This document shows, in pieces, positions 4,146-31,365 of a stretch of 31,365 nt of DNA (positions are counted from its first letter, which is position 1; each line of letters opens with the position of its first letter). Location: positions 1-31,365 of IMG/VR virus record IMGVR_UViG_3300030060_004475; one strand, given 5' to 3'. A program made the position numbers and the translations under genes. The notes below the pieces were generated by a model. The model was not told the origin of the DNA, searched no databases, and saw only the letters and a program-made list of their open reading frames with translations. The DNA comes from a virus.

Positions 4146-4166
4146 TTTATAAAGAAGGGGTTTTAA

Positions 4167-4193
4167 GGGGAGCATTCGTGCTCCTTTTTTTTT
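4167..4193 (+). terminator. Strong intrinsic terminator with TTCG tetraloop
   Basis: GGAGCA (4169-4174), TTCG loop, TGCTCC (4179-4184), then T9. Perfect stem. It separates the tail tube gene from the portal operon, whose ACGTTAT element begins 17 nt after it. Confidence 0.9.
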
Positions 4194-20465: not shown

Positions 20466-21609
20466 TACAAATGTTGTATGTAAACATTTAATCTATTCCA
20501 AAAAAAAAATTATAATAGAGCAGGGCGGTACAAGGTCAGGCAAAACTTATAACATATTATTGTGGATCATATTTTATTATTGCGCTGAACATACAGGCAA
20601 GGTGGTCACGATATGCAGAAAAACTTATCCCTCACTTAGAACCTCAGCGATGAGGGATTTTATAACAATCCTTAGAGATCATAATATCTATCAAGAAGAA
20701 AATCATAATAAATCTTCTTCAGAGTATAAATTGAAAGGTAATCTTATTGAATTTATATCTTTAGATCAACCACAAAAAGTAAGGGGCAGGAAGCGTGATT
20801 TGTTATTTATAAATGAAGCAAATGAACTTTATTGGGAGGATTGGCAGCAACTCATCTTTAGAACACAGGGAAGAATAATATTGGACTATAACCCATCTGA
20901 GGAGTACCATTGGATATATGATAAAGTAATTCCTAGAGAGGATGCAGATTTTTTTCAAACAAATTACAAGGATAATCCATTTGTAGAGGATACGATCAAA
21001 AAAGAAATAGAAAGGCTCAAAGAAACAGATGAAGGTTATTGGCAGATTTACGGATTGGGCGAAAGGGGTATTTCTAAAACAACTATTTTTAAATATGTTG
21101 AGGTTCAAAATATTCCTGATGATGCTAAATTTCTTTCTTATGGTGTTGATTATGGATTTACAAACGATCCCACAGCAATTGTGGGCGTATGGATCAAAGA
21201 TTATATGCTATATATTAAAGAGTTTGTTTATCAAACAATGATGACCACAATTGATATTCATAAAAAGCTACAGAATATGGGGGTATATAGAGAGCCTATT
21301 TTTGGAGATTCAGCAGAGCCGAGATTGAATGAAGAACTACGAAGGATGGGATGGAATATAAAAGGAAGCATAAAAGGTAAGGATAGTATAAACGCAGGGA
21401 TTGATCTTTTGAAAAGATATAAGTTGCACGTGACTTCTGATTCTAACAATGTGATAAATGAATTTAGAAATTATAGATGGAAACAAGATAGATCAGGAAG
21501 AACATTAAACGTTCCAGAAGATAGGGCAAACCATACTGCAGATGCAATTCGATATGCTGCTTATTCAATGTTGAGCAGACCAAATTTCGGAAAATACGCA
21601 ATATCCTAG
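20455..21609 (+). CDS. terL: Terminase large subunit
   Basis: 384 residues from ATG 20455 (TTG at 20446 is less likely). ATPase: Walker A GGTRSGKT (24-31), Walker B LLFINEANE (116-124), coupling region YNPSEEYHW. Nuclease: SYGVDYGFTNDPTAI with Asp232, FGDSAEPRLNEEL with Asp285, and NHTADAIRYAAY with Asp363. This is the motor-nuclease that packages DNA through the portal. Length is usual for PBSX/Terminase_3-type large subunits (about 400). Overlaps the small subunit by 11 nt. Confidence 0.9.
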   Translation: MRIDTNVVCKHLIYSKKKIIIEQGGTRSGKTYNILLWIIFYYCAEHTGKVVTICRKTYPSLRTSAMRDFITILRDHNIYQEENHNKSSSEYKLKGNLIEFISLDQPQKVRGRKRDLLFINEANELYWEDWQQLIFRTQGRIILDYNPSEEYHWIYDKVIPREDADFFQTNYKDNPFVEDTIKKEIERLKETDEGYWQIYGLGERGISKTTIFKYVEVQNIPDDAKFLSYGVDYGFTNDPTAIVGVWIKDYMLYIKEFVYQTMMTTIDIHKKLQNMGVYREPIFGDSAEPRLNEELRRMGWNIKGSIKGKDSINAGIDLLKRYKLHVTSDSNNVINEFRNYRWKQDRSGRTLNVPEDRANHTADAIRYAAYSMLSRPNFGKYAIS

Positions 21610-21630: not shown

Positions 21631-21661
21631 TTTGATAAGTTATTTTTTTTTATTATATTAA
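21631..21661 (+). promoter_or_regulatory. Host-type promoter candidate: TTTG-N19-TATATTAA
   Basis: TTTG (21631-21634), 19-nt spacer, TATATTAA (21654-21661), close to the Bacteroidota TTTG / TAnnTTTG pair with normal spacing. It lies in the 100-bp gap before the gene at 21710, and predicts a leader of about 40 nt. Confidence 0.4.
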
Positions 21662-22067: not shown

Positions 22068-22099
22068 AAGGGGAACAGAAATGTTCCTCTTTTTTTTTA
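22068..22099 (+). terminator. Strong intrinsic terminator before tail genes
   Basis: AAGGGGAACA (22068-22077), GAAA loop, TGTTCCTCTT arm with one G-T pair, followed by a T-run to 22098. Its core is GGAACA/TGTTCC. It closes the 21710-22000 unit and precedes the tail operon promoter by 16 nt. Confidence 0.9.
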
Positions 22100-22127: not shown

Positions 22128-22781
22128 ATGAAGCTAGATGTATTAGTACCAACTAAAATGTCAGAAATAACATTGAAACAGTTTACGGATATTGTTTCGA
22201 TTGAAGAAAAAAATGGCACAAATGAATTTCTAATGCAGAAGGTGGTTGAAATAATTTGCGGTATAGACTTAAAATCTGTGGCATTGATTGCATACAAAGA
22301 TGTAAAAGAAATTTTTGATCACGTTCAAGCATTATTAAATGAAAAAGCAGATTTCAAGAACAAATTTTCCCTCTATGGCAAAAAGTATGGTTTTATACCT
22401 CTGCTTGATGAGATGAGTTTTGGCGAATATATAGATATCAACGATAATTTTAAATCTTGGGAAACAATACATAAAGCTATGGCAGTTTTATACAGACCTA
22501 TAATCACAGAAAAAAATGATCTTTACTCAATTGAAGATTATGATGGCATAAAAAATTCAAACGTTTATTTAGATATGCCCATCGATGTTGTTCTAGGTGC
22601 GCAATTTTTTTTTCTAAATTTAGGAATGGAGTTGATGCAAATTACCCTGAACTCTTCGATTCAGGACAAGGACTTGAGCTTGGAAGAGAAGCAGGTTTTG
22701 CTAAAAAGTGGGGATGGTTTCAAAGCATCTTTGGACTCACTCAGGGAGATATTACAAAAGTCAAAAATATTACCGAATTGA
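22128..22781 (+). CDS. Tail assembly chaperone, short (frame-0) product
   Basis: 217 residues. Contains MSFGEYIDINDNFKSWETIHKAMAVLYRPII and the DMPIDVVLGAQFFFLNLGMEL stretch, a pattern I recall from the tail-gene cluster of Bacteroidota phages. Position after terminase and before tail completion and tape measure fits a tail assembly chaperone (lambda gpG-like). The FFF is encoded by T9 (22605-22613), where a -1 shift would join the 22613-22867 frame. Both frames downstream of the run look like real protein. Function by context, not motif-proven. Confidence 0.65.
   Translation: MKLDVLVPTKMSEITLKQFTDIVSIEEKNGTNEFLMQKVVEIICGIDLKSVALIAYKDVKEIFDHVQALLNEKADFKNKFSLYGKKYGFIPLLDEMSFGEYIDINDNFKSWETIHKAMAVLYRPIITEKNDLYSIEDYDGIKNSNVYLDMPIDVVLGAQFFFLNLGMELMQITLNSSIQDKDLSLEEKQVLLKSGDGFKASLDSLREILQKSKILPN
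22605..22613 (+). other. T9 slippery run, candidate programmed -1 frameshift site
   Basis: Frame-0 codons CAA TTT TTT TTT CTA contain the heptamer T TTT TTT, a canonical X XXY YYZ slippery sequence. The -1 frame is open from before the run through 22867, whereas the frame-0 product stops at 22781. No downstream pseudoknot was identified by eye. Confidence 0.6.
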
Positions 22782-22867
22782 ATATGCACGAATGTTTATT
22801 GTGGTTATGTTTTTTGAAAGAAAAAAACGATATAGAAGCTGATAAAATAAAAAGAAAATTCAAATGA
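22613..22867 (+). CDS. Frameshifted C-terminal extension of the tail assembly chaperone (gpGT-like)
   Basis: Reading in the -1 frame after the T9 run gives 84 codons ending at the TGA 22865-22867: NGVDANYPELFDSGQG, GREAGFAKKWGWFQSIFGLTQ, ELNMHECLLWLCFLKEKNDIEADKIKRKFK. The pattern (KKWGWFQSI..L..GDI...N.T.L..HE.L..L.F.KEK) is that of a real conserved tail protein. No ATG, GTG or TTG occurs in this frame before about 22781, so it cannot easily start on its own; a fused product of about 246 residues is expected. Its stop overlaps the next gene's ATG at 22864, coupling them. This copies the lambda G/GT logic. Confidence 0.65.
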   Translation, partial: SKFRNGVDANYPELFDSGQGLELGREAGFAKKWGWFQSIFGLTQGDITKVKNITELNMHECLLWLCFLKEKNDIEADKIKRKFK

Positions 22868-23334
22868 GCAATCGAGGTTCAAGAGCATACTATTTAATTA
22901 CAGATACATTAAAAGACCAATTGATTGCAGATGAATTTGTAAATACTGTCACGTTAGGAGATATAACAGAAGTAGATTTAAACAAGCAAACTATATTCCC
23001 TTTATCTCACATTATAATAAACAATGCAACTTATCAAGGTAATGTATGGTTGATGAATGTAACTGTCTTGGCTATGGATGTTGTGGATCAAAGCAAATTA
23101 GAAACAACAGATGTATTTTTAGAAAACAACAATGAACAAGATATATTAAACACTCAACTTGCTGTAATAAATAAACTTTTGGGCGTTATATCAAGGGGAA
23201 GCCTATATAGTGATAATTACCAATTGCAGGGTGATGCTTCTTGTGAGCCTTTTGTTGACAGGTTTGAAAATATGGTTACAGGATGGGCAGCAACTTTTGA
23301 TGTAGTGGTTAAAAATGATATAGATATTTGCTAA
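22864..23334 (+). CDS. Putative tail completion / terminator protein
   Basis: 156 residues, beta-rich with helices at the ends (AYYLITDTLKDQLIADEFVNTVTLGDITEVDLNKQTIFPLSHI). The VNTV..GDI.EVDL.KQT.FPL.HI pattern recurs in flavobacterial phages next to tail genes. By position it may be the tail terminator or a head-tail joining protein. Start on the stop of the frameshift product (ATGA); end overlaps the next ATG (TAATG). Confidence 0.55.
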   Translation: MSNRGSRAYYLITDTLKDQLIADEFVNTVTLGDITEVDLNKQTIFPLSHIIINNATYQGNVWLMNVTVLAMDVVDQSKLETTDVFLENNNEQDILNTQLAVINKLLGVISRGSLYSDNYQLQGDASCEPFVDRFENMVTGWAATFDVVVKNDIDIC

Positions 23335-29210: not shown

Positions 29211-29362
29211 TAAACGTAATTTTGGACTTGCTTGAAGTAGCAAAAAAAAATAAACAATCAGGGCGTTATATAAGTATAGCTTTGGGTAAAAATAAATTTC
29301 CTGATTCAATAAAAGAAACAAAAAAATTGCTTAGCAGAAAATTATGGAAAGACGCACAATAG
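29207..29362 (+). CDS. Small hypothetical protein between tail tip and tape measure
   Basis: 51 residues (MINVILDLLEVAKKNKQSGR, then YISIALGKNKFPDSIKETKKLLSRKLWKDAQ). Starts on the tail-tip stop (ATGA) and overlaps the tape-measure start by 19 nt. Basic and helical. The exact ATGA junction supports it, but it has no recognised family. It could be a chaperone for the tape measure or only a translational bridge. Confidence 0.5.
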   Translation: MINVILDLLEVAKKNKQSGRYISIALGKNKFPDSIKETKKLLSRKLWKDAQ

Positions 29363-31128: not shown

Positions 31129-31365
31129 AAATAGTAGAGTTAATTTTAGATGATGGAGACAATGTGGGTGTAGATGCTATTAGCATTGTTGAGAATCCTG
31201 CAATTGAAGAGGATTTTATTGCGTTAAAATCTCAAGAAGTGAAATTTGCAGAAGTAGATAAAGACAAAAAAATATTGGTGGGCGCACTTCTGACACCTAA
31301 TAAGCCTATATATAGAAAACAAGAGGATAACGAATATTATATTTACTTCTCACGAGAAACTGTTA
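31125..31365 (+). CDS. Capsid maturation protease (XkdF-like), 5' part; continues at position 1
   Basis: ATG at 31125 overlaps the tape-measure stop (ATGA) and opens a frame that leaves the window without a stop. Its residues 38 onward (EVKFAEVDKDKK) are the same as those encoded from base 1, so this is the N-terminus of the gene that continues at 1-1350. The first 37 residues include the VDAISIVENPAIEEDF stretch typical of the N-terminus of XkdF-type phage proteases. The joined product is about 486 residues. The true start is therefore here, not the GTG at base 4. Confidence in the joining is high because the frame, the residues and the 130-base overlap all agree. Confidence 0.9.
   Translation, partial: MKIVELILDDGDNVGVDAISIVENPAIEEDFIALKSQEVKFAEVDKDKKILVGALLTPNKPIYRKQEDNEYYIYFSRETV
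31236..31365 (+). repeat. Terminal direct repeat, right copy (circular overlap)
   Basis: Right copy of the 130-base overlap with the window start. All five differences are synonymous in the protease frame: TAC/TAT, GAC/GAT, TAC/TAT, and AGG/CGA, which accounts for two of them. Removing one copy gives a unit of about 31,235 bp. Confidence 0.9.

Follow-up and report, generated by a model that had tools for sequence, protein, structure and literature searches.

The window analysed here, a 31,365-nt stretch of viral DNA (IMG/VR record IMGVR_UViG_3300030060_004475), carries a gene whose frame-0 reading begins at ATG 22128, ends at a stop codon at 22779-22781, and contains a run of nine T's that begins on a frame-0 codon (CAA TTT TTT TTT CTA). 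Positions 22544-22867 are open in the -1 frame, which encodes FAKKWGWFQSIFGLTQGDITKVKNITELNMHECLLWL..., and its TGA (22865-22867) overlaps the ATG (22864) of the next gene. An earlier sequence-only reading had described a frame 0 from 22128 to 22781 overlapped by a -1 frame that lacks an early start and whose stop overlaps the next ATG, and it was borne out, with all of its coordinates holding: the first possible starts in the -1 frame are TTG 22778 and ATG 22784, both 3' of a KWGW motif. Residues 1-162 of the frame-0 product would be common to a fusion with 84 residues from the -1 frame (246 aa; sizes read from the sequence), while residues 163-217 form the frame-0 product's own tail. The features are as follows.

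22070-22098, + strand: hairpin then T9, resembling a terminator, 5' of the recoded gene; identified by eye.
22128-22781, + strand: frame-0 ORF, 217 aa, putative unshifted (gpG-like) product; homologues, AlphaFold2 model with pLDDT 84.
22605-22613, + strand: candidate T9 slip run; length of at least nine kept in all relatives, codon register varies.
22607-22613, + strand: in-frame heptamer T TTT TTT, where the alternative ribosomal -1 slip would occur.
22613-22867, + strand: -1 frame domain with KWGW motif, 84 aa, joined to residues 1-162 in the predicted 246-aa fusion (gpGT-like); model pLDDT 76.
22614-22781, + strand: dual-coding stretch, in which the frame-0 tail and the -1 domain both appear to be under selection by substitution pattern, open-frame and identity tests.
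22864-23334, + strand: next gene, 156 aa, phrog_30964 (function unknown); its ATG overlaps the -1 frame stop.

The other T9 runs of the + strand lie at 4185 and 22090, where they follow hairpins (4165-4193 and 22070-22098) and resemble intrinsic terminators, the second just 5' of the recoded gene, and at 21643, which is intergenic. An A10 run at 20500-20509, about codon 15 of the large terminase gene, is longer than codon shuffling predicts and is a possible second slip site. The window ends (1-130 and 31236-31365) form a repeat over 130 bases with 5 mismatches; the contig is probably circular or terminally repeated, and its overlapping ends vary between strains.

IMG/VR and GTDB contigs were searched for relatives by profile and by pattern, and isolate phages by tblastn. 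The relatives are ~20-57% identical to the window proteins, and gave a main set of 310 loci in 94 clusters at 80% amino-acid identity and, after duplicates and contig-edge cases were dropped, 279 distinct junction sequences. A sample of ~790 Bacteroidota genomes yielded just two more. Relatives from MAGs that match in full belong to Bacteroidota (Flavobacteriaceae, Winogradskyella, Flavobacterium), and the family is a large one of viruses of marine and freshwater Bacteroidota. The only isolates among the relatives are the Nonlabens phages P12024L and P12024S (Inhavirus), which support a kinship with known phages: their gp40-gp41 and gp38-gp39 are homologous to the window gene (~30% identity), with the same -1 arrangement, a T9 and the same place after the terminase, but have a shorter overlap after the run (74 nt) and are annotated as two separate hypothetical proteins, the recoding going unremarked.

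Length and register of the T run

The KWGW-bearing second domain lay in the -1 frame in all 279 distinct junctions, and the unbroken T run was nine long in 222 of them, ten in 56 and twelve in one, with no run of seven or eight at any of the 279 junctions. Counted by cluster, the lengths were nine (69), ten (24) and twelve (1). Recoding at the T run, with fusion of the N-terminal part to the -1 frame, had been proposed from the window, and the arrangement is kept throughout; the alignment of homologues suggested as its check returned both frames and a run of at least nine at 279 of 279 junctions, with no homologue that combined a broken run with a separate start for the second frame.

The four codons around the run (c1-c4) were numbered as positions 1-12. 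Positions 3-9 are T in 94 of 94 clusters while positions 1, 2, 10 and 11 vary, and three registers are in use: positions 2-10 (xTT TTT TTT Txx), the most frequent; positions 1-9 (TTT TTT TTT CTx), found in the window and others; and positions 3-11 (xxT TTT TTT TTG), found in L235, L322-L323 and L324, with c1 = GGT in L322-L324. The window and L235, its nearest relative, are two bases apart in register with exactly nine T's in each. A tree of 91 clusters shows three or more gains of a C at position 10, after the run, and c1 is TTT in each case. Were c1 and c4 to assort freely, fewer than nine T's would be expected in 5.7 of the 94 clusters; none was observed and none of 20,000 shuffles matched this, although the shuffle takes no account of relatedness, which makes the tree count the more cautious figure.

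On its own, a T9 is unremarkable in the window (14.6 expected over both strands, 11 found), and conservation therefore has to carry the argument. Chance was rejected as an explanation in that the run alone is ordinary but the same junction is kept in 279 relatives without exception. A test conditioned on the amino acids was uninformative, as V/L/I/F followed by Y/W gives a T9 once the heptamer is present, and the register argument was therefore used. The V/L/I/F-F-F-Y/W sequence may be kept for the protein's sake, which counts against transcriptional slippage as the reason for the run.

From these comparisons, we favour slippage by RNA polymerase on T9, with one T added, over a ribosomal -1 frameshift, and consider it moderately probable, because a length of at least nine is always kept while the ribosome needs seven, the register moves and no conserved stimulator was found. 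One gene would then give two proteins sharing 162 N-terminal residues. Faithful messages (U9) would yield the 217-aa product, whereas stuttering of the polymerase on T9 would add one U and place the ribosome in the -1 frame, yielding the 246-aa fusion with the KWGW domain at its end. If one U were missing, the message would read TTC TAA and give a stub ending at residue 162; the presence of a stop in this third frame within a few bases was discounted as support for slippage, because encoding L-G in frame 0 and F-R in the -1 frame at once forces TTTAG.

Selection against A or T runs in a large share of bacterial genomes is evident from length nine, and eight A's have been called non-slippery (PMC1088944). 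In vivo, bacterial RNA polymerase slips efficiently at nine, a length that fits its 9-10 bp hybrid (PMC5009743). Thermus dnaX (a run of nine), Shigella mxiE and spa13, and IS elements likewise have an A/T homopolymer of at least nine at a frame junction, where a single run yields at least two products (PMC1088944, PMC5009743); these genes are cellular or IS-borne, whereas the window gene is a candidate phage tail chaperone with mRNA heterogeneity only predicted. Within the loci studied here, coding-strand T runs of at least nine are avoided in 299 other genes (1 against 7.5 expected from shuffled synonymous codons), which fits a host where such runs slip. T7 (19 against 36 expected) and T8 (5 against 15.6) are also reduced in the coding strands of these genes, which would suit ribosomal slipping, so run avoidance does not decide the mechanism.

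The strongest alternative is that two tRNA-Phe slip together on the ribosome at T TTT TTT (22607-22613), the extra T's merely raising efficiency, to give the same fusion. The sequence-only reading had taken this form, a programmed -1 shift at the canonical heptamer. The heptamer is indeed there, in frame, in every relative, but any T9 contains one in every register and it therefore says nothing on mechanism. The canonical slip did not find support, as the T count never falls below nine in 279 junctions though seven suffice for a ribosome, and the register of the run shifts while its length is kept. Nor did a stimulator emerge: there was no excess of RNA structure beside the run on either side (91 clusters; mean z between -0.06 and 0.19), RNAalifold gave no consensus pair near it (structures without pseudoknots), and Shine-Dalgarno-like 4-mers lay upstream in only 10 of 94 clusters. 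Not all ribosomal frameshift sites have stimulators. Tail chaperones as a rule use ribosomal shifts (PMC5009743), and the use of frameshifting in prfB by Bacteroidia ribosomes (PMC8710568) keeps a ribosomal shift here plausible, if less probable than slippage by the polymerase. Because both mechanisms give the same 246-aa fusion, protein data cannot decide between them, and RNA can. We infer both the machine that slips, RNA polymerase and not the ribosome, and the ratio of the products.

A possible role in tail assembly

In lambda, gpG and gpGT are tail assembly chaperones made by a ribosomal -1 frameshift. The G/GT frameshift is described as ribosomal and ranks with the best-conserved cases of recoding in tailed phages. 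The window gene resembles this pair in its one start, its short and long product, its -1 shift and its siphophage-type genome; comparative sequence across the 279 junctions points to a short and a long product made from one start by a change of frame. The two differ in that in lambda the ribosome slips close to the end of G, whereas the window gene has a T run of at least nine and a 165-nt dual-coded stretch that forms the short product's own tail. There is no detectable homology between the window gene and lambda G/GT, and the window gene has no tape-measure gene next door: it follows the large terminase gene region and precedes the tape-measure candidate at 29344 (a tentative call) by five genes, ~6.5 kb. 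The gene order in P12024L is the same. Since the gene is not directly upstream of the tape-measure candidate, we do not claim membership of the G/GT class.

The AlphaFold2 model of the shared domain was confident (pLDDT 84) and placed the slip site inside a long helix (152-179), and that of the -1 domain was helical (pLDDT 76). Fold and sequence searches of the PDB returned no relatives, only generic helical matches, and as the long helix fills the list the other parts were barely tested. Pfam and NCBIfam tail-chaperone families gave no match, and a Pfam hit to CRISPR_Cas9_WED was set aside as sub-threshold noise. In BFVD, the sole informative name was tail assembly chaperone, a weak match (E 0.012). 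Five viral proteins (A0A516L5A8, A0A6J5SVK3, A0A6J7XA66, A0A6J5N0W0, A0A6J5MY57) were matched by both the N model and the C model, the latter weakly (E 0.06 to 2.5), which suggests that the two domains may also exist as a single-frame fusion.

BFVD also returned a remote relative, a 191-aa protein of Flavobacterium phage 6H (E 6e-5) that is gp10 by length and sits a few genes before the annotated tape measure of that phage. Phage 6H was rejected as a close comparator, being too remote, with frames that seem broken or differently shifted. In its record (L315, 10047-10927, minus strand) the conserved second half of gp10 seems to run on in other frames, which suggests a different shift or an error in the record.

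We infer a G/GT tail-chaperone role from the architecture and the weak fold matches, and think it quite likely that the gene works like G/GT, its two main products probably acting in tail assembly as lambda gpG and gpGT do. The sequence-only reading had called it a G/GT-type chaperone; the two-product layout stands, while the family assignment is left with no family match, one weak fold match and a position away from the tape-measure candidate. The recoding could instead be real and serve another step, for example head completion or a connector. The place directly after the large terminase region, five genes and ~6.5 kb short of the tape-measure candidate in the window and likewise in P12024L, and the lack of a Pfam or NCBIfam tail-chaperone match speak for such a step. 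We consider it unlikely, as tail chaperones typically have such a frameshift layout with two products (PMC5009743), the BFVD match bears that name, the phage 6H relative lies near a tape measure, and weak matches to phrog_166 'tail protein' were obtained for 9 of 45 relatives.

Dual coding of the overlap

If the frame-0 protein is taken as fixed, the -1 frame stays open throughout the overlap with a chance probability of ~0.003 in the window, and of less than 0.05 in 90 of 94 clusters; conversely, if the -1 protein is fixed, the P for frame 0 being open as far as it is comes to ~0.003 in the window and is < 0.05 for 83 of the 94 clusters, the expected open length of frame 0 being 18 nt (median) against an actual 168 nt. 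Substitutions per site across 1344 pairs of relatives, at frame-0 codon positions 1/2/3, were 0.118/0.060/0.358 before the run, 0.054/0.107/0.114 in the overlap, and 0.040/0.181/0.068 3' of the frame-0 stop, so that in the overlap the frame-0 wobble (position 3) and the -1 wobble (position 2) are both depressed. Between clusters, identity in the frame-0 tail is 46%, where the -1 protein alone would predict 29%; the open-frame, identity and substitution figures all overstate independence, owing to shared history, and all agree in direction. The suspicion that both frames are constrained thus proved sound, and on this comparative evidence the 165-nt dual-coding stretch is real, with both frames under selection.

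The distance from slip to frame-0 stop is 165 nt in the window and 47-251 nt overall. Known tail chaperones have far shorter distances, with averages of 26 and 36 nt (PMC10274946). In P12024L and P12024S (L008 and L009) the frame-0 tail after the slip is only 74 nt, and in L174 it is 47 nt, the others having 161-251 nt; the long dual-coded tail marks just part of the family.

Two readings that would remove the recoding are both very improbable. Homopolymers are error-prone and mutable, and lengths of nine, ten and twelve do occur, so a sequencing or assembly error or a phase-variable run could leave a true T8 or T10 that joins the frames permanently in some genomes; but across 279 distinct junctions from many samples the second domain invariably sits in the -1 frame, with no in-frame fusion at any run length, and selection acts on both frames of the overlap. 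The reading of the -1 frame as a gene apart that starts by itself, as annotated in P12024L/S, is countered by the absence of any ATG, GTG or TTG in the window's -1 frame before 22778, that is, until past the KWGW motif, and by the 57 of 94 clusters with no start of any kind before that motif (ATG in only 6). Recoding and dual coding, as read from these alignments, are close to certain.

In the literature searched, outside which most subscription papers fall, no tail chaperone made by transcriptional slippage is described. Taken as a whole, the proposal that a large Bacteroidota phage family relies on slippage of RNA polymerase, at a T run of at least nine, to set the ratio of its two tail-chaperone-like proteins, where other phages use the ribosome, and codes two selected protein tails over the same ~165 nt of DNA, seems to us evenly balanced. 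The case also corrects an annotation, in that two hypothetical genes in Inhavirus, and likewise hundreds of environmental contigs, represent one recoded gene, and it offers a sequence-based way to tell the two mechanisms apart, which is to follow the run length and not the heptamer. If it is true that a whole family swapped the ribosome for RNA polymerase and retained the two-product logic, then evolution would keep the ratio of the products and not the mechanism, as for dnaX.
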